Shown piece after piece: positions 9,595 through 42,716 of a DNA stretch of 64,000 nt. The notes beneath the pieces are model-generated. The model had not been told where the DNA came from, made no database searches, and worked only from the letters and a program-made list of their open reading frames with translations. The DNA comes from Alphaproteobacteria bacterium (GTDB lineage: Bacteria > Pseudomonadota > Alphaproteobacteria > ATCC43930 > CGMCC-115725): positions 1 through 64,000 of the forward strand of contig JAGWON010000005.1 of the NCBI GenBank assembly GCA_028871055.1, read 5' to 3'. A program made the translations under genes and the position numbers. Every line of letters starts with the position of its first letter. Within the stretch, counting starts at the first letter, position 1.

Positions 9595-10881
9595 ATGCAC
9601 AAGTGGGGGGTCGTTGTCCTGGCGGCCATTGCGCTCGCCGCGTCGAGCGGCCGTGTGCTGGCGCAAACCGGCCTCTTTCCGACCGAACTCACGCCGCCCG
9701 AGCGCGAGAGCGTGATGCAGCGGGCGCGGCCGGACTACGCGCCGGTCGGCGGCCGTGTCGGTGACTTCTTTCTCTATCCGAGCGCCGAGGCCGAAGGCTA
9801 TTGGGATTCGAACGTCTTCTATGCGCCTCACGCGAAGAGCGACTTCTATGCCTCGTTGCGGCCCGCTTTTTCCGCCCTGTCGGATTGGGGCACCAACCAG
9901 CTCAACTTCCTCGCCAACGCCGAGGTCCGCCGCTTCGCCACCGAGGTGAGCGAGAACCAGACCAACTACAACCTCGCCACCAACGGCCGGCTCGATATCC
10001 TGCACGGCGAATATCTCGAGGGCGGCATGGGCTTCCAGAACCAGCACGAGGAGCGTTACGCGGCGAGCTCGGCGCCGACCCAGGTGCACCCGACCGAATA
10101 CCAGGAAGCGAGCGGTCGGCTCAAATTCGTGCGCGAGCGCGGCATCGTCGGCGTGCAGCTCAACGGCGGCCTCGACTATTACACCTACGACAACACGCTC
10201 ACCACCAGCGGCGCGTCGCTTCGGGAAACCGACCGCAATCGCATCGAGGTCTATGGCGGACCGAAAGTCACCTACGAGATCATTCCGGACTACCATGCCT
10301 TCATCGCCGGCGCGCTCAACGACCGCATCTACCAATCGACCTTCGACGTCAACGGCCTCAAGCGCTCGTCGCACGGCGGCGAGGTCGACGTCGGCACCGA
10401 CGTCGAGATCACGCGCCTGATCACCGGCGAGATTTTCGTCGGCTATCTGCGACAGGAATACGACGATTCGCGCCTGCCGACGATCAGCAGCCCGGGTTTC
10501 GGCGGCAACCTGCTGTGGAACGTGACCGAGGCGACTTCGATCCGCGCCAAAGCGTCGCGCACGATCCAGGAGGTCGACCTGTTCGGGACCACGGCGGCGG
10601 GGACCGTCACCTCGGCCCTGCAGACGGCGGTGGGCGCCTCGATCGAGCACGAGGTGCTACGCAACGTCCTGCTCACCGGCGGCGCCAGCTTCACCTCGGA
10701 CGACTACCAGGGCACGTCGCGGACCGATAACACCGTCGAAGGCGATCTCGGTCTCTCCTACCTGCTCAACCGCATGTGGAGCACCGGTCTCGACGTCTCG
10801 TATCAGAACCGCACGTCGAACACGTCGGGCGTCTCCTACAGCCGCGCGCTGATCGGCGCCAAGATCAGGCTGCAGTACTGA
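9595..10881 (+). CDS. Outer-membrane beta-barrel protein (BBP2/porin-like)
   Basis: 428 residues from the ATG at 9595, which follows AAGGGGA; the upstream in-frame TTG is not needed. The signal peptide covers about 1-23 (MHKWGVVVLAAIALAASSG, cleavage after VLA). The mature protein alternates hydrophobic and polar residues in strands (FFLYPSAEAEGYWDSNVFYA, KVTYEIIPDYHAFIAGAL) and ends in an aromatic residue (IRLQY), the outer-membrane insertion signature. It resembles the putative beta-barrel porin 2 family often found in EPS loci, where it may help polymer export or anchoring. Confidence 0.85.
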   Translation: MHKWGVVVLAAIALAASSGRVLAQTGLFPTELTPPERESVMQRARPDYAPVGGRVGDFFLYPSAEAEGYWDSNVFYAPHAKSDFYASLRPAFSALSDWGTNQLNFLANAEVRRFATEVSENQTNYNLATNGRLDILHGEYLEGGMGFQNQHEERYAASSAPTQVHPTEYQEASGRLKFVRERGIVGVQLNGGLDYYTYDNTLTTSGASLRETDRNRIEVYGGPKVTYEIIPDYHAFIAGALNDRIYQSTFDVNGLKRSSHGGEVDVGTDVEITRLITGEIFVGYLRQEYDDSRLPTISSPGFGGNLLWNVTEATSIRAKASRTIQEVDLFGTTAAGTVTSALQTAVGASIEHEVLRNVLLTGGASFTSDDYQGTSRTDNTVEGDLGLSYLLNRMWSTGLDVSYQNRTSNTSGVSYSRALIGAKIRLQY

Positions 10882-12117: not shown

Positions 12118-13671
12118 GTGGGCGATTTGCCTGAAGAGACGGTCTCCACCGCGTCACCGAAGCGCGACCCCAACGTTCATTTGCGCACCGACCACTTGCG
12201 CCAAGACTTCGCCGGCCGTTCGGTTCGGGGCGGCGCCGTCACCGTCGCGGCGCAGATCATCAAGGTAGCGGTGCAATTCGGCGTGACCGTCATTCTCGCG
12301 CGGCTGTTGCGGCCGGAGGCGTTCGGCCTCGTCGCCATGGTCGCCGTGATCGTCGCCTTTCTCGAGCTGTTCAAGGATTTCGGCCTGTCCGCCGCCACCG
12401 TCCAGCGCGAGACCGTCACCCATGAGGATATCAGCGCCCTGTTCTGGGTGAATGCCGGCCTCGGCGTTGCCGCCGGGCTGGTGATGATCCCGCTGGCGCC
12501 GCTGCTGGCGTGGTTCTACCGCGAACCGGCGCTCGTCGGCGTGACCCTCTGGCTCGGCATCGGGTTCGTGCTGAGCGGCCTGTCGACCCAGCACTTGGCG
12601 GTCCTGCGTCGGCAGATGCGCTTCACCGCGCTGGCGATGATCTTGATGTGGTCCGAGATCATCGGCATGGCCGTGGCCGTGATCGCCGCCTATGCCGGCG
12701 CCGATTATTGGGCGCTCGTCGTGCAGCGGCTGGTGTGGGCGCTGTGCATCGCCATCGGCGCCTGGGTCTTCTGCCCATGGCGGCCCGGCCGCCCGGCCGG
12801 CCTCGGCCGGGTCCGCGACCTTCTGCGCTTCGGCGGGCACGTCACCGGCTCCAATCTCGTCGGCACCTTCGCCCGCAATCTGGACCAGATCCTCATCGGC
12901 TGGTACTGGGGCGCGACACCGCTCGGGCTTTACGAGCGCGCCTACAAGATCCTCCTTGTTCCGATCAACAATCTGAACGCGCCGCTGTTCTCGGTCGCCA
13001 TGCCGGCCTTGAGCCGGCTGGTCGACCGGCCGGCGCTCTACCGCCGCGCCTATCTCGGCACGGTCGAGAAGCTGAACATGGTGACCATGCCGTGCGCCGC
13101 CGTGCTCATCGCCGTTCCTGGACCGGTGGTCCGAGTATTGTTCGGCCCACAATGGCTTGCCGCCACGCCGATCGTCGCTTGGCTCGGTGTCGCCGCCCTC
13201 TACCATCCGATCGGCTATACCTGTAGCTGGCTCTTCATGACGCAGGACCGGACCGCGGAGATGCTCCGCTGGGGATTGTTCGGATCGGCGCTCAACGCGG
13301 CTTTCATCGTCGGCGGCCTGCCCTTCGGACCGGTCGGCGTCGCCGCCAGCCTTGCCGCCGGCGGGCTCGCGGTTCGGATGCCGTTGCTGTTCTGGATGGT
13401 CGGGCGAAGCGGGCCGGTCTCGCGCGGCGACCTGGTACGGAGCATGCTGCCGTCATTCGCCGCGTCGCTCATGATCGTCGGCGCGCTCGTTCTCATCCGG
13501 CACGCCGGGCTCTTCAATGTCGCGACACCGCTGCGCTCGTTCGCAGTTGCCATGGCCGTCGCTGCCGCGGTCGCGCTGGCCTGCTTCGCCAGCATACCGC
13601 AAAGCCGCCGCGCGCTCGTCGAATTCGCCAGACTTCCCCAGCTCCTCGTCCGCCGGCGCGCCAATGCGTGA
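12118..13671 (+). CDS. Lipopolysaccharide/EPS flippase, MOP superfamily (Wzx type)
   Basis: 517 residues and about 12-14 hydrophobic helices. It should flip undecaprenyl-linked oligosaccharide across the inner membrane. The N-terminal RSVRGGAVTVAAQIIKVAVQ, LRPEAFGLVAMV and FKDFGLSAATVQR are typical of the RfbX/Wzx-C group. The GTG at 12118 is preferred because AAAGAGGGGA lies at 12101-12110 and because the paralogue at 24502 starts in the same place; a longer in-frame start at 12034 exists. The following glycosyltransferase overlaps it by 8 bp. The second flippase shares the N-terminus and much of the body. Confidence 0.9.
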   Translation: MGDLPEETVSTASPKRDPNVHLRTDHLRQDFAGRSVRGGAVTVAAQIIKVAVQFGVTVILARLLRPEAFGLVAMVAVIVAFLELFKDFGLSAATVQRETVTHEDISALFWVNAGLGVAAGLVMIPLAPLLAWFYREPALVGVTLWLGIGFVLSGLSTQHLAVLRRQMRFTALAMILMWSEIIGMAVAVIAAYAGADYWALVVQRLVWALCIAIGAWVFCPWRPGRPAGLGRVRDLLRFGGHVTGSNLVGTFARNLDQILIGWYWGATPLGLYERAYKILLVPINNLNAPLFSVAMPALSRLVDRPALYRRAYLGTVEKLNMVTMPCAAVLIAVPGPVVRVLFGPQWLAATPIVAWLGVAALYHPIGYTCSWLFMTQDRTAEMLRWGLFGSALNAAFIVGGLPFGPVGVAASLAAGGLAVRMPLLFWMVGRSGPVSRGDLVRSMLPSFAASLMIVGALVLIRHAGLFNVATPLRSFAVAMAVAAAVALACFASIPQSRRALVEFARLPQLLVRRRANA

Positions 13672-37180: not shown

Positions 37181-37457
37181 TCAGCGCCGCGCGGCGTCCG
37201 GCTGGCGTTCGAGCGCATCGGCGGCGGCGCAGTCGCGCCGGTGAGCCGCCTCGACGAGATCCTTGAGCCGCCCAACCGCAGCGTCGATCAGCGTCAACGC
37301 TCGTTGCGCGCGCACGTTATCGCCGGGCACGGCGCGCCGCAGTGGCTCGAGCGACGACTGGATTGTGGCGAGCGACCCTTTCAGGGCGTGCGCGGTCTCG
37401 TCCGCCGCCACGCGCAGATCGCGCCCGATGCCGGCGAGCGCCGCTACCGGCGACCCA
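37181..37457 (-). pseudogene. Truncated sensor histidine kinase: HisKA segment only
   Basis: Directly after the response regulator stop, one frame encodes VAALAGIGRDLRVAADETAH, ALKGSLATIQSSLEPLRRAV, then ALTLIDAAVGRLKDLVEAAH before a stop at 37181. This is the H-box and second helix of a histidine kinase dimerisation domain (H in ETAHALKG). There is no sensor region and no HATPase domain, and no convincing start: the nearest in-frame codon is GTG at 37411. It is probably the remnant of the partner kinase, or less likely a small phosphotransfer protein. Confidence 0.6.
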
Positions 37458-38291
37458 TCAGGCCGGCTGCGCGGGCGCGGTGCGCCAGCGATAGCCGAAC
37501 GCGGGGAAGTTCTCGATTTCGCCGAACTCTGCATCGAGCGACCGGAATTTGTTGCGGATCCGCTTGATCGACGAGCGGACGTTGGTGCGATAGCCCTCGT
37601 CGCCGTTGCCGGCGACGAAGCCGGCGTGATGGACGCAGTCATAGATCGAGCGATAGGTCACGTGCTCGCCGGCGTGCGACACCATCAGATGAACGATGTT
37701 GAATTCCGTCACCGTAAGGTTGGCGTCCTTGCCATCCCAGAACGCGCGGCTCACATCCGGCCGCAGCGTCAACTTGCCGCACGCCAGGGCCGCCTTGTCC
37801 GGCGTCTCGCGCGCACGGCGGTGGGAATCAAGGATAAGACGGATGCGCTTCGCCAGGATGGGCACGCCGCGCGCTTTGTCGACGAAATCGAGCGCGCCGC
37901 GATCGAGTGCTGCGCTCTCGTACGCGGTGGCGGGCATGCCCGTGAGGAACACCACAGGCAGCCGGATGCCGCGGTCGTGCAGCTTGGGCAGCAGGTCGAT
38001 GCCGAGGCCGGTCGGCAGCTTCCAGTCGAGCACGATCACGTCAGCGTTGTTGTTCTGCGCGAAATATTCGAGCATCTCTTCGCCGGTGGCGAATGCGACC
38101 ACGTCGAACGCGAGCTCCGCGAGCTCGGCTGACGCCGCCTCGCGATAGTCCGCGTCATCATCGACCAGGAGCAACCTGATGCGGGTTCCGGCAGGTGAGT
38201 CGACTCGTTCGGCTTGGCCCGTCGCGTCGCTCGCGAGCGCGACGTTCGTCGTCGACCAAGTCGAAGCGGCTTCCTTCTGTAGCGTCGTCAT
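37458..38291 (-). CDS. Response regulator with winged-helix output (OmpR/ChvI-like)
   Basis: 277 residues. The receiver domain spans about 37-155: LLLVDDDADYREAASAELAE (acidic pocket DDD), phospho-acceptor in VIVLDWKLPTGLGIDLLPKL (about residue 86), VVFLTGMPA and DFVDKARG (conserved Lys). The output wing-helix spans about 175-270 (LTVTEFNIVHLMVSHAGEHV, YRTNVRSSIKRIRNKFRSLD). A 35-residue N-terminal extension is unusual. It lies between the EPS export genes and the ECF locus and may regulate EPS synthesis. The adjacent kinase remnant suggests its original partner is damaged, so it may be driven by another kinase. Confidence 0.88.
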   Translation of the reverse strand: MTTLQKEAASTWSTTNVALASDATGQAERVDSPAGTRIRLLLVDDDADYREAASAELAELAFDVVAFATGEEMLEYFAQNNNADVIVLDWKLPTGLGIDLLPKLHDRGIRLPVVFLTGMPATAYESAALDRGALDFVDKARGVPILAKRIRLILDSHRRARETPDKAALACGKLTLRPDVSRAFWDGKDANLTVTEFNIVHLMVSHAGEHVTYRSIYDCVHHAGFVAGNGDEGYRTNVRSSIKRIRNKFRSLDAEFGEIENFPAFGYRWRTAPAQPA

Positions 38292-38564
38292 CGCTGTTCA
38301 CCTCACACAAAATGAGCCCGACACACGCGTCTTCGTTATCGACGTGCGGACAGTCCGGTAGAATAGAGCGAGACCGATCGCGGTGTTCCCCGACTCCTCG
38401 TTGGCCGGGAACGTCATGCTGCTGATATGACGCCCCCTCGACGGCAATCCGACGCGCAGCGCGCATCGGCAGCCGTGGCAAAATCTAACCGCGCAAATGG
38501 GGCACAAATTTGACGCGGACCGGCAGCCATCCGCGCCACCGCCCTCGGCGGTATCACGGAATGG

Positions 38565-38777
38565 TCACAGTTGACCGGGCCGGCACCGGCCCGCCGTGCG
38601 GGGCGGCAGGCGCAACCCGGCAACAATGCGACGCACCTCGGCGGCGGTTACCCCATCGCGCGCCATTACGGCGCACACCACCGGGTCGGACCGCGCCTCT
38701 TCGAACGGCGGCTCGATTCCGGGTTCGGCGTAGGGCAGCCGGCGAGGCGGCGAACGCGGCGGAAGGATGCGCGACAT
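38565..38777 (-). CDS. Small protein under ECF-type promoter, 70 aa
   Basis: I do not recognise the family. The ATG at 38777 follows a strong CGGAGGAAA ribosome site, 6 bp away. The sequence is proline- and arginine-rich (MSRILPPRSPPRRLPYAEPG), acidic in the middle (PPFEEARSDP), and has a helix DGVTAAEVRRIVAGLRLPP. No signal peptide or membrane segment. The upstream ECF-like promoter (38818-38843) leaves a leader of about 35 nt, supporting a real expressed gene of the same regulon as the anti-sigma and GalU-like genes. Confidence 0.65.
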   Translation of the reverse strand: MSRILPPRSPPRRLPYAEPGIEPPFEEARSDPVVCAVMARDGVTAAEVRRIVAGLRLPPRTAGRCRPGQL

Positions 38778-38817: not shown

Positions 38818-38843
38818 GACGCCCGCACAGTCGGTATATTCCC
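38818..38843 (-). promoter_or_regulatory. ECF sigma-type promoter P3 (70-aa gene)
   Basis: On the minus strand GGGAATAT (-35, 38843-38836), a 15-bp spacer and GTCCGT (-10, from 38820). The same spacing and words occur before the anti-sigma gene and the GalU-like gene. Confidence 0.6.
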
Positions 38844-38874
38844 GCGCGATACTCGGTATATTCCCGCGCGATAC
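38831..38874. repeat. Perfect 22-bp tandem duplication
   Basis: TCGGTATATTCCCGCGCGAT plus AC occurs twice without a mismatch (38831-38852 and 38853-38874). Each copy contains a GGGAATAT -35-like element on the minus strand; only the gene-proximal copy has a GTC -10 at the right distance. Confidence 0.95.
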
Positions 38875-38923
38875 GCAGTAAAGCGCCCATCGTCGAGTCG
38901 CACAGGTGGCGAGCGTGCCGCCG

Positions 38924-39397
38924 TTACCGGCCGGCTGTAAGGAATACGTGCGGCACGACAGTCCAGTCGCCGCCCGCCGCGACCGACCAGGCTGTTGCGG
39001 TGGCGACAGCCGCCGCCGCGCTCCAGGCCAAGATGTGTCGGCCGCGCTGCTGCGCCAGGCGGCGGGCGAATTGCGCCGCCAAATAGGTCACTGCAGGCGA
39101 TGGCGGCTCGCGTACCAGCTGCCGCAAGACGCGGTTCTGGTGGCGATAGGCGGCGGCATCGGCCGCCGCCGCCGGGTGCCGCGCCAAGAACGAGCGCACG
39201 CGCTCGCGCCGCGCGGCATCGAGCGCGTCATCGACGAAAGCTTGCAGCTCGTAGTCGCTGATCGTCGATTCGATCCGGAACGCGTCGTCGGGCGCCCTCG
39301 GTTCCCGGCGCCGCGCCGGCCGCAACAGCGCTGCAATCGGCCGGCGCGCTCGACGGCGCGGCAGCATGACGACGTTGCTCGTACGACGTTCCAACAT
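38924..39397 (-). CDS. Probable anti-sigma factor (membrane-anchored)
   Basis: 157 residues. ISDYELQAFVDDALDAARRE (about 47-66) and FLARHPAAAADAAAYRHQNR resemble the N-terminal sigma-binding domain of alphaproteobacterial anti-sigma factors (the DLHAYVDGQLD-type pattern). One membrane helix follows near the C-terminus (ILAWSAAAAVATATAWSVAA), and about 15 residues would face the periplasm, a short sensor part. The ATG at 39397 is favoured because the promoter at 39440-39465 excludes the earlier start at 39457. It probably restrains the ECF sigma factor at 42056-42607, although that gene lies 3 kb away. Confidence 0.72.
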   Translation of the reverse strand: MLERRTSNVVMLPRRRARRPIAALLRPARRREPRAPDDAFRIESTISDYELQAFVDDALDAARRERVRSFLARHPAAAADAAAYRHQNRVLRQLVREPPSPAVTYLAAQFARRLAQQRGRHILAWSAAAAVATATAWSVAAGGDWTVVPHVFLTAGR

Positions 39398-39439
39398 GGG
39401 GCCCCGCCCGGGGTTGACATCACCCGTGACAGGGATACG

Positions 39440-39465
39440 GACGACACCCGGGCGCAATTATTCCC
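39440..39465 (-). promoter_or_regulatory. ECF sigma-type promoter P1 (anti-sigma gene)
   Basis: On the minus strand GGGAATAA (39465-39458), 15-bp spacer, GTCCGTAT (from 39442). It would start transcription about 35-40 nt before the ATG at 39397. Confidence 0.62.
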
Positions 39466-39518
39466 GGCATCGACATCCGCATTTCATCGCGCCGATAAGC
39501 GGCCGAAACGCGCCGCCG

Positions 39519-39544
39519 GGGAATAATCCGGCCGCTTCCGCGTC
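39519..39544 (+). promoter_or_regulatory. ECF sigma-type promoter P2 (GalU-like operon)
   Basis: GGGAATAA (39519-39526), 15-bp spacer, GTCTTTAC (from 39542), 51 bp before the ATG at 39593. It diverges from P1; the two -35 elements form an inverted repeat in the 195-bp shared intergenic region. Confidence 0.62.
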
Positions 39545-39592: not shown

Positions 39593-40540
39593 ATGAAGCC
39601 ACGACACGTTCGCAGGGCGATCATTCCCGCAGGCGCGCTCGGCACCCGATTCCTTCCCGCGACCAAGGCCTTGCCGACGGAAATGCTGCCGCTGGTCGAC
39701 CGACCGCTCGTTCAATACGCCGTCGATGAAGCGCTCGCCGCCGGCATCGAGAAGATCGTGGTCGTCACCGGCCGCGGCAAGGCCGCGATCGAGGATCATT
39801 TCGACTGCGCGCGCGAGCTCGAGGACACGCTTCGCCGCCATGGCAAGCGGGGCGCGCTTCAGGCGGTCGAGGACAGCTGCGCGCGGCCCGGCGTCATCGC
39901 ATATATGAGGCAACAGCAGCCATTGGGCCTGGCTCACGCCCTGTGGTGCGCGCGGCATGTGATCGGCGACGAGCCCTTTGCGGTCCTGGCGCCGGACGAC
40001 GTGATCCTGGCGAAGGTCCCTTGCCTGGTGCAGATGGTCGCGGCCTATCGGGAAATTGGCGACAATCTGGTCGCGGTGACTCCGTTGGCGCGCAGCGGGA
40101 CCGCGCGCAACGGTGCGATCGCGGCGACCGCGCGTAACGGCCGCTTGCTCACCGCATCCGGCATCGCCGCGCAACCCGCGTCCGCTGGCTTGGCGTCGAA
40201 ATGGGCGGTCGCCGGCCGTTATATCCTCGATTCGGCGATCCTTCGCCGCCTGGGCGAGCGGCCGCCGAACCCCGACGGCGACGTCCCATTCATCGACGCG
40301 CTCGCGCGCCTGGCCGGCGACGGCGCGCTCCGCGGCTATGCCTTCGCCGGACGCCACTTCGATTGCAGCGACGTGCCGGGCCTGCTCGAGGCCAATATCG
40401 CTTTTGCCCTGGACCGAACCGATCTCGCGCCGACAGTGCGGCACGTGTTGTCACGGTATGCCCGACTCGTCGGCCATACCGTCGACCATACCGGCCGGCC
40501 GCGACCGGTCGAGACGCCGGAAATGGCGGTGCCGGCATGA
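39593..40540 (+). CDS. GalU-like nucleotidyltransferase with altered catalytic motifs
   Basis: 315 residues of the UTP-glucose-1-phosphate uridylyltransferase fold: AIIPAGALGTRFLPATKALP (about 9-28), LPLVDRPLVQYAVDEALAAG, VVVTGRGKAAIEDHFD, PLGLAHALWCARHVIGDEPF, FAVLAPDDVI and WAVAGRYIL. Key positions differ from normal GalU: the nucleotide loop ends PTEM instead of PKEM; the VEKP motif, whose lysine contacts the sugar nucleotide, reads AAQP (about residue 193); and the GE-QLTDA motif reads GDVPFIDA. It may be inactive, regulatory or use another substrate. The next gene overlaps it by 4 nt. Confidence 0.8.
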   Translation: MKPRHVRRAIIPAGALGTRFLPATKALPTEMLPLVDRPLVQYAVDEALAAGIEKIVVVTGRGKAAIEDHFDCARELEDTLRRHGKRGALQAVEDSCARPGVIAYMRQQQPLGLAHALWCARHVIGDEPFAVLAPDDVILAKVPCLVQMVAAYREIGDNLVAVTPLARSGTARNGAIAATARNGRLLTASGIAAQPASAGLASKWAVAGRYILDSAILRRLGERPPNPDGDVPFIDALARLAGDGALRGYAFAGRHFDCSDVPGLLEANIAFALDRTDLAPTVRHVLSRYARLVGHTVDHTGRPRPVETPEMAVPA

Positions 40541-42048
40541 AGATGAACGGCACGCACTACCGCACGAGCGGCGCATTCTCGGACGGCCGCCTGCGTCCGG
40601 AGCGAATCGGATCGCCGGCGGCACGACGCACGATCGGCAAGCGCCTCATCGATCCCGCGAACCTGCGCGAGGACGACATACGCGGGATCGTCGGCAAGAC
40701 GCTCGACGACGCCGATGCCGGTGCGCTCGGCGCCGCTTTCGGAACGCTGGTATCCGAGCGCGGCGGCCGCACGGTCGCGCTGGGCTTCGACGGCCGCTTG
40801 ACCTCGCGCGCCTTGGCCGTCGCGTTCGCCCGCGGCCTGATCGCGACCGGGATCCACGTTGCCCGTGTCGGCCTCGGTCCGACGCCGATGCTCTATTTCG
40901 CCAATGCGATGCTGCGGACCGACGCGGCGGTCATGGTGACCGGTTCGCACGACCCACCCGAATACAACGGCTTCAAGCTGACGGTCCGCGGTCGCACCCT
41001 GCGTCGCACCGACATCTGGCGCTTGGGCGAGATCGCCGCCGCCGGCGCCTTCGCGCCGGGCGCCGGCCTTATCCTCGACCGCCCGGTGATCGACGCCTAT
41101 GTCGAGCGCCTCATCGGCGACCTTTCGCTCGCGCGACCGCTTGCCGTGGTGTGGGACGCGAGCAACGGCGCCGCTGGCGCCGTGCTGACCAAACTATGCA
41201 CGCGGATTCCGGGCCGCCATGTCCTGCTGAACGAGATGGTGGACGGCACCTTCCCGTCGCACCGCCCCGATCCGACGACGCCCGACGCGCTCGATCAGCT
41301 CCGCAAGATCGTGGTCGCCGAGGAATGCGAACTCGGCGTCGCCTTCGACGGCGACGGCGACCGCATCGGCGTCATCGACGGCGAGGGGCGCGTGCTGTGG
41401 GGCGATCAGATCCTGCTGCTGCTCGCGCGCGACGTGCTGCGCGAGCGTCCCGGCGCGACGATCATCGCCGACGTCAAGGCCAGCCAGACCCTCTTCGACG
41501 AGATCGCCAGACTCGGCGGTCGCCCGGTCATCGCGCGCGCCGGCCGCCTGCCGATCGAGGCCAAGATCGCCGAGACCGGCGCGCCGCTCGCCGGCGAGAT
41601 GAGCGGCCATATCTACCTCGGCGACAAATATTACGGATACGACGATGCGCTCTATGCGGCGCTGCGGCTGATGAACGTCGTGTCGCGCGCGGATCGCAGC
41701 CTGGCCGCTCTGCGCGACGGCATGCCGCAGACCTTCAACACGCCGGAACTGTCCCTGCCCTGCGCGGACGGCCGCAAGCTCGTGGTGATCGACGAGATTC
41801 GCGCGCGCCTCGCGGCCGCCGGCGCGGAGGTCATCGCCATCGACGGCGTGAGGGTCCGGACTGACGACGGTTGGTGGCTATTGCGCGCCTCGACCATGCG
41901 AGACGCATTGGTCGCGTGCTGCGAAGCGACGACCGAAGCCGGTCTGATCCGGGTGAAGGAGACGCTGCGCGAACAGCTCGAGCGCAGCGGCGTGCCGGCG
42001 GCCGCGCTTGGCGAATTTTACGAGGATCCGATCGCGACGATCGGCTGA
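40537..42048 (+). CDS. Phosphomannomutase/phosphoglucomutase family enzyme
   Basis: 503 residues, alpha-D-phosphohexomutase family, which interconverts hexose-6-phosphate and hexose-1-phosphate. Motifs in order: active-site serine loop VTGSHDPPEYNGFK (about 133-146), metal loop AFDGDGDRIGVIDG (about 269-282), sugar-binding GEMSGHIYLGDKYYGYDDAL (about 354-373), and phosphate-binding RASTMRDAL near residue 450. The usual SHNP is SHDP, a mild change. Its product would feed the GalU-like partner, with which it overlaps by ATGA, and GDP-mannose synthesis for gmd. PMM versus PGM specificity cannot be fixed from sequence. Confidence 0.9.
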   Translation: MKMNGTHYRTSGAFSDGRLRPERIGSPAARRTIGKRLIDPANLREDDIRGIVGKTLDDADAGALGAAFGTLVSERGGRTVALGFDGRLTSRALAVAFARGLIATGIHVARVGLGPTPMLYFANAMLRTDAAVMVTGSHDPPEYNGFKLTVRGRTLRRTDIWRLGEIAAAGAFAPGAGLILDRPVIDAYVERLIGDLSLARPLAVVWDASNGAAGAVLTKLCTRIPGRHVLLNEMVDGTFPSHRPDPTTPDALDQLRKIVVAEECELGVAFDGDGDRIGVIDGEGRVLWGDQILLLLARDVLRERPGATIIADVKASQTLFDEIARLGGRPVIARAGRLPIEAKIAETGAPLAGEMSGHIYLGDKYYGYDDALYAALRLMNVVSRADRSLAALRDGMPQTFNTPELSLPCADGRKLVVIDEIRARLAAAGAEVIAIDGVRVRTDDGWWLLRASTMRDALVACCEATTEAGLIRVKETLREQLERSGVPAAALGEFYEDPIATIG

Positions 42049-42055
42049 CGACGGC

Positions 42056-42607
42056 TCAGACGACGCGCAGATGGCCGCGGCGCACGGCGACGCTGCGCAA
42101 TGGCGACGACGGTAGCCGGTCGCGGCCTTCGGTCAGGCGGCGGAGCGCCTCCCGGCCCCGCGACAGCCGCGACATCACCGTACCGATCGGGACATCGAGC
42201 GTTTCGGCCGCCTGCTGATAGCTCATGCCCTCGAGGCCGACGAGCAGGACGACTTCGCGCTGCTCCACCGGCAGATGTTGCAGCGCGCGCTCGAGATCCT
42301 TGAGTTCGACCGCGGCCGTCTGGGTCTCGGCGCACGCCGTGCGGCCGCCGACCGTCAGCTGGAGCTCGATGTAATTCCGTTGGCGGCGACGGCTGGCAAG
42401 CCAATCGACGTAGGCATTGTGCATGATGGCGAAAAGATAGGCGCGCGGATCCCGGATGCGGCTCCACAGCCGCGCTTGCGCGATCGCGCGGACCAAACAT
42501 TCCTGCACCAGTTCGTCGGCCTCGCCGGCGTGGCCGACCAGCGCGCGCGCATAGCGCCGCAGATCGGCCGTGTATCGCCGAACCGACTCGTCGAGTGCCG
42601 CGCTCAT
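42056..42607 (-). CDS. ECF RNA polymerase sigma factor
   Basis: 183 residues from the ATG at 42607 (a G-rich site upstream). Region 2: ARALVGHAGEADELVQECLV, AQARLWSRIRDPRAYLFAIM, HNAYVDWLASRRR (about 22-78). Region 4: ALQHLPVEQREVVLLVGLEG, MSYQQAAETLDVPIGTVMSR (about 113-155). No region 3, as usual for ECF. It converges on the mutase gene (7-bp gap). The likely anti-sigma gene lies on the other side of the galU-like/mutase operon rather than adjoining it. Likely target promoters are P1-P3; its own upstream region shows no copy of that motif. Confidence 0.93.
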   Translation of the reverse strand: MSAALDESVRRYTADLRRYARALVGHAGEADELVQECLVRAIAQARLWSRIRDPRAYLFAIMHNAYVDWLASRRRQRNYIELQLTVGGRTACAETQTAAVELKDLERALQHLPVEQREVVLLVGLEGMSYQQAAETLDVPIGTVMSRLSRGREALRRLTEGRDRLPSSPLRSVAVRRGHLRVV

Positions 42608-42716
42608 CCGCCCCTGTCCATGTTGCCGTGCAGAAATAAACCGTGCGGCCAAATCCGACTCGTGACAAAAAAGCGCTTCGCACCGCGGCGGCGCGTCCGA
42701 ATTCCGCCACATTCGA

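Follow-up and report, generated by a model that had tools for sequence, protein, structure and literature searches.

Three copies of a bipartite motif within 730 bp of a 64,000-nucleotide alphaproteobacterial stretch (hereafter, the window) are likely to serve as promoters for RNA polymerase bound to the ECF26-like sigma factor encoded in the same neighborhood (P1–P3, Table 1). On sequence comparison, a small regulon of familiar type is well supported; its layout is both unusual and conserved, and its anti-sigma factor lacks the sensor part. A preliminary description had placed GGGAATAW-N15-GTCY in front of the anti-sigma gene (P1), the GalU-like/mutase operon (P2) and the gene of a 70-aa protein (P3), and we found all three sites to be exact, with 15 bp between GGGAATAW and GTC in three out of three cases. 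Each site is oriented towards its gene, with 40–48 nt from GTC to the start codon; the preliminary description gave 41–51 bp from −10 to start. The sigma factor gene, said to lie 3 kb off, is real and starts about 3 kb from P2.

Table 1. Features of the predicted ECF26-type regulon, in window positions
Feature	Position	Strand	Description
P1, predicted ECF26-type promoter of anti-sigma gene	39440..39465	-	GGGAATAATTGCGCCCGGGTGTCGTC then C; GGGAATAA-N15-GTC; 42 nt to ATG
P2, predicted ECF26-type promoter of galU-like/pgmG operon	39519..39544	+	GGGAATAATCCGGCCGCTTCCGCGTC then T; 48 nt to ATG
P3, predicted ECF26-type promoter of 70-aa protein gene	38818..38843	-	GGGAATATACCGACTGTGCGGGCGTC then C; 40 nt to ATG
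21-bp direct repeat TATCGCGCGGGAATATACCGA	38831..38873	-	period 22; duplicates −35 region of P3
OmpR-type response regulator	37458..38291	-	adjoins anti-sigma gene here and in f58 loci (47–50% identical); outside promoter set
70-aa protein	38565..38777	-	no assigned function; weak homologues in 11 further family genomes
Anti-sigma factor, 157 aa	38924..39397	-	class-I-like anti-sigma domain followed by a single TM helix and a 17-residue tail; extracytoplasmic sensor domain missing
GalU-like nucleotidyltransferase, divergent paralogue	39593..40540	+	TIGR01099 248 bits, cut-off 326.8; VEKP replaced by AAQP
PgmG-type phosphoglucomutase/phosphomannomutase, second copy	40537..42048	+	start overlaps galU-like stop
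ECF sigma factor (ECF26-like)	42056..42607	-	Sigma70 regions 2 and 4; convergent with pgmG; upstream region lacks a GGAATA motif

Dinucleotide shuffles of the window yielded 0.10 expected matches to a looser N13–17 form of the motif, compared with three in the window itself. For the exact form, a first-order Markov model gave an expectation of 0.006 per 64 kb versus three observed, an optimistic figure, as the motif was derived from the same three sites; real support for the same reason has to come from other genomes. The genome-wide search that had been suggested earlier returned four matches of the N14–16 form in 3.07 Mb, and only P1–P3 lie outside a coding frame; the fourth (C3:10850) was rejected as a further target, being located inside a 298-aa frame. 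A relaxed GGAATA-N16/17-GTC pattern matched 29 times across the genome, nearly always within long frames, and the site at C12:15880, 59 nt upstream of a dxr-like start, is the sole one of these that is even plausible as a further target. At P3, the distal copy of the 21-bp repeat is not accompanied by a −10 at the right spacing.

Judged by its sequence, the motif is the ECF26 promoter already mapped in Sinorhizobium meliloti and hence not new. The S. meliloti ECF26 sigma factors RpoE1, RpoE4 and RpoE6 use a −35 GGAATA and a −10 GT(C) at a spacing of 15–16 bp, with one base difference among promoters (PMC6180224, PMC6527743), and the same elements, 15–16 bp apart, are present at P1–P3 and all conserved counterparts. 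Across 80 named sigma relatives, fetched by similarity, plus 16 family loci, we counted 77 instances of GGAATA-N16/17-GT[CT] no more than 2 kb from the sigma gene, compared with two of the reversed pattern. Many of the 80 named relatives carry the motif near the sigma gene, and the spacing peaks among relatives are sharp (N16: GTC 17, GTT 9; N17: GTT 24, GTC 5). The closest named relative of the window sigma factor (58%), from Geminicoccaceae KatS3mg117 (L136), shares the window's GGGAATAA-N15-GTC promoter in the gap upstream of its sigma/anti-sigma operon. Unlike the window, this locus has the canonical sigma-then-anti-sigma order and a 339-aa anti-sigma factor with a long C-terminal part; the 12 kb covered contained no detected match to galU.

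Orthologous genes in other genomes carry the same promoters. In G002, a member of the same genus, the block is kept in synteny, and counterparts of P1 and P2 occur as TGGAATAA-N15-GTC, 43 and 46 nt before the starts, respectively (P1 counterpart, TGGAATAAAGTCGGCACCTGGCCGTC). In G003, also of this genus, galU begins 49 nt after GGGAATAT-N15-GTC, with the ABC and glycosyltransferase orthologues next to it; a frameshift and a deletion of ~35 residues disrupt the sigma gene, the P2 motif persists, and the contigs read showed neither an anti-sigma gene nor pgmG. In another family of Alphaproteobacteria (f58), three genomes (G314, G219 and G390) keep the arrangement of response regulator, then anti-sigma, then the divergent promoter pair, then galU and sigma, and GGAATA-N16-GTC is found at all six promoters of the divergent pairs. 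The anti-sigma frame appears degraded in G314, and galU was recovered in part in G390. As P1/P2 thus recur before the orthologous genes of other species and of another family, and the published ECF26 consensus is matched, the local ECF regulon put forward in the preliminary description is well supported. P3 with its 70-aa gene was seen in the window genome alone, both being absent at the G002 locus, and no motif lies close upstream of the homologues of the 70-aa protein in the 11 other family genomes. Two f58 genomes contain a further GGAATA-N16-GTC facing away from the sigma gene (L264 near 7561 and L265 near 4742, both on the minus strand in sigma-forward orientation), with no clear gene start behind.

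The same genome encodes a second ECF26-type sigma factor (G000, C21:3326-3814), which is RpoE6-like and clusters with S. meliloti RpoE6 (100/92). It belongs to a canonical sigma/anti-sigma operon (C21:3249-4700; L216) with a full-length anti-sigma factor and its own promoter (GGAATAATTCACATCCGAACCCGTT), a GGAATA-N16-GTT site that is nearly unchanged in all four genus members checked. P1–P3 could accordingly be ECF26-type promoters driven mainly by this factor, or by both, a scenario to which we assign a small but real probability: its promoter shares the −35 and the spacing, ECF26 sigma factors cross-activate one another's promoters in S. meliloti, and G003 retains the P2 motif despite its broken local sigma gene. 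However, the −10 differs consistently, being invariably GTC at the P1/P2 sites of six genomes and GTT before the C21 sigma gene in four genus members, and P1/P2 travel with the window sigma gene across two families. The GTC/GTT split therefore favors the window sigma factor as the likely driver of P1–P3, perhaps with some cross-talk. It is highly improbable that the motif words are instead operator sites of a DNA-binding regulator such as the OmpR-type response regulator; its gene adjoins the locus in conserved synteny, but the fixed 15-bp spacing, the similar start-codon distance, the constant orientation to the gene and the match to mapped ECF26 promoters all argue against operators, and P1 and P2 each consist of one asymmetric site without repeats. 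Chance resemblance in a GC-rich genome, as the 29 looser matches might suggest, is next to impossible in view of the exact-form expectation and is already refuted by conservation at orthologous genes.

The window sigma factor, our preferred driver of P1–P3, is 39% identical to S. meliloti RpoE6 and groups with motif-bearing relatives in the tree, the deep forks of which, including the placement relative to RpoE6, are not settled. Co-transcription of the sigma with the anti-sigma gene and autoregulation are usual (PMC3511301). At the window locus, these typical ECF26 traits are missing: the two genes are separated by galU-like/pgmG, and the sigma/otsB intergenic region of neither the window nor G002 contains a GGAATA motif directed at the sigma gene. 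We thus rejected sigma autoregulation, which is not visible at the sequence level. An EcfG-like GGAAC-N17-GTT string before otsB was likewise discarded, since inspection by eye showed it to be unconserved in G002. Upstream of the sigma gene, TTTTGTCACGAGT is conserved between the window (near 42660-42675, minus strand) and G002 (L079, near 9830-9842), representing a possible binding site for control of sigma; in f58 loci, TTTGTCACG is located upstream of sigma, with a second TGTCAC about 22 bp on. The same-family sigma homologues L080-L094 (~50% identity) were rejected as regulon orthologues, lacking a comparable GGAATA motif and having different neighbors. Several of these family f1 loci carry an upstream TTACAA..TTACA element together with divergently oriented receiver-like sequence, and they look like a different regulatory type.

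The putative partner of this sigma factor is the 157-aa anti-sigma factor. Alignment, hydropathy, structure model and weak but consistent Foldseek hits all point to an N-terminal anti-sigma domain followed by a TM helix. AlphaFold predicted confident helices in both regions (pLDDT ~88–96 by block, 77.9 overall), and 14 out of 15 Foldseek hits with this model were chains of anti-sigma complexes, each individually weak; a PDB sequence profile search gave no convincing hit. The C-terminal extracytoplasmic domain, typical of ECF26 anti-sigma factors if not strictly defining, is missing: 17 residues follow the TM window here, 16 in G002 and 61 in f58, compared with a conserved stretch of ~130–190 residues in ~40 canonical homologues beside related sigma genes. 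No free-standing gene for the missing domain was found in the genome with a query that also missed the genome's own canonical ECF26 anti-sigma factor, so that this negative carries little weight. In S. meliloti 1021, a frameshift interrupting EcfR1 goes along with raised RpoE1 targets (PMC3511301), and by analogy the shortened window anti-sigma factor may be leaky. Since the sensor part is missing, the 'envelope stress' reading is unsupported. Of the earlier proposal linking envelope stress sensing to sugar-nucleotide supply, only the supply half can therefore be retained, as a plausible ancestral output.

That output would be set by the genes behind P2. By both the curated cut-off and the VEKP motif, the window protein falls outside GalU proper, and the Glu-Lys of VEKP, residues lining the active site of Escherichia coli GalU, is lost in the window species and G002. 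The galU behind P2 keeps VEKP in G003 and the f58 family, making sugar-nucleotide supply plausible in sequence terms as the ancestral role. The second gene product exceeds the NCBIfam PgmG cut-off (NF046027; 615.1 versus 600 bits) and has SHDP in place of SHNP. In the G002 copy (L079 10479-11966, minus strand), the sugar-binding loop reads GEANGH instead of GEMSGH, and this copy may be losing activity. A canonical galU-pgmG pair resides elsewhere in the genome (C5:58554-60807). The surroundings form an exopolysaccharide locus with a Wza-type export protein, a Wzc-type chain-length/kinase protein, glycosyltransferases and an ABC transporter. By position, the syntenic OmpR-type response regulator is a possible upstream input. 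Beside it, a frame at 37181-37457 (minus strand) contains a HALKGSLATIQ-like stretch that recalls the histidine kinase dimerization motif, with no visible ATPase domain. Upstream of the response regulator, ATGGGGCACAAATTTGACGCGG is identical in two species (window 38499-38520; L079 near 13600-13620) and is a possible regulatory element.

Together, these observations suggest the following mechanism. Region 4 of the sigma factor would recognize GGAATA and region 2 (C)GTC, 16 bp apart, and the free factor would activate P1, and with it its own inhibitor, as well as P2 (galU-like/pgmG operon) and P3 (70-aa protein), resulting in negative feedback without self-amplification. The anti-sigma domain would hold the sigma factor at the membrane; because the extracytoplasmic sensor is gone, release would have to take another route, via the membrane segment, sigma abundance or the neighboring response regulator. 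The output would be sugar-nucleotide metabolism beside an exopolysaccharide locus. More tentatively, and with somewhat less than even confidence, we envision a separate alphaproteobacterial ECF26-like lineage, in which the sigma/anti-sigma pair was split around galU, sigma self-activation and the anti-sigma sensor were lost, and the input shifted to another component, perhaps the syntenic OmpR-type response regulator, so that the anti-sigma factor would now act as a pure feedback brake.

ECF26 sigma factors, experimentally tied so far mainly to sulfite metabolism, would thereby gain a second conserved candidate output in UDP-glucose type sugar-nucleotide genes; our literature search found no paper tying galU to an ECF26 sigma factor. 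Moreover, these loci provide a natural experiment on the role of the extracytoplasmic domain in ECF26 anti-sigma factors, as two families have it shortened or missing but keep the promoters.

In Pseudomonas, AlgU/MucA (ECF02) controls sugar supply for alginate, and the periplasmic domain of MucA is cut by proteases. Like the window, this system places an ECF sigma factor and a membrane anti-sigma factor over exopolysaccharide/sugar-phosphate genes, but it belongs to another ECF group, uses another promoter and retains the periplasmic domain. Closer in kind are the ECF26 systems RpoE1/EcfR1 and RpoE4/EcfR4 of S. meliloti, which regulate sorT and their own operons (PMC3511301, PMC6180224). They share with the window GGAATA and CGTC at 15–16 bp, a small regulon of few genes, an anti-sigma factor under (here, predicted) sigma control, and an anti-sigma domain with one TM helix. 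In S. meliloti, however, sigma and anti-sigma genes are co-transcribed and autoregulated and the anti-sigma factor has a periplasmic domain, whereas in the window the sigma gene is split off and has no motif and the anti-sigma sensor is missing. The targets differ as well, being sulfite oxidation in S. meliloti and, in the window, probably the galU-like/pgmG pair.
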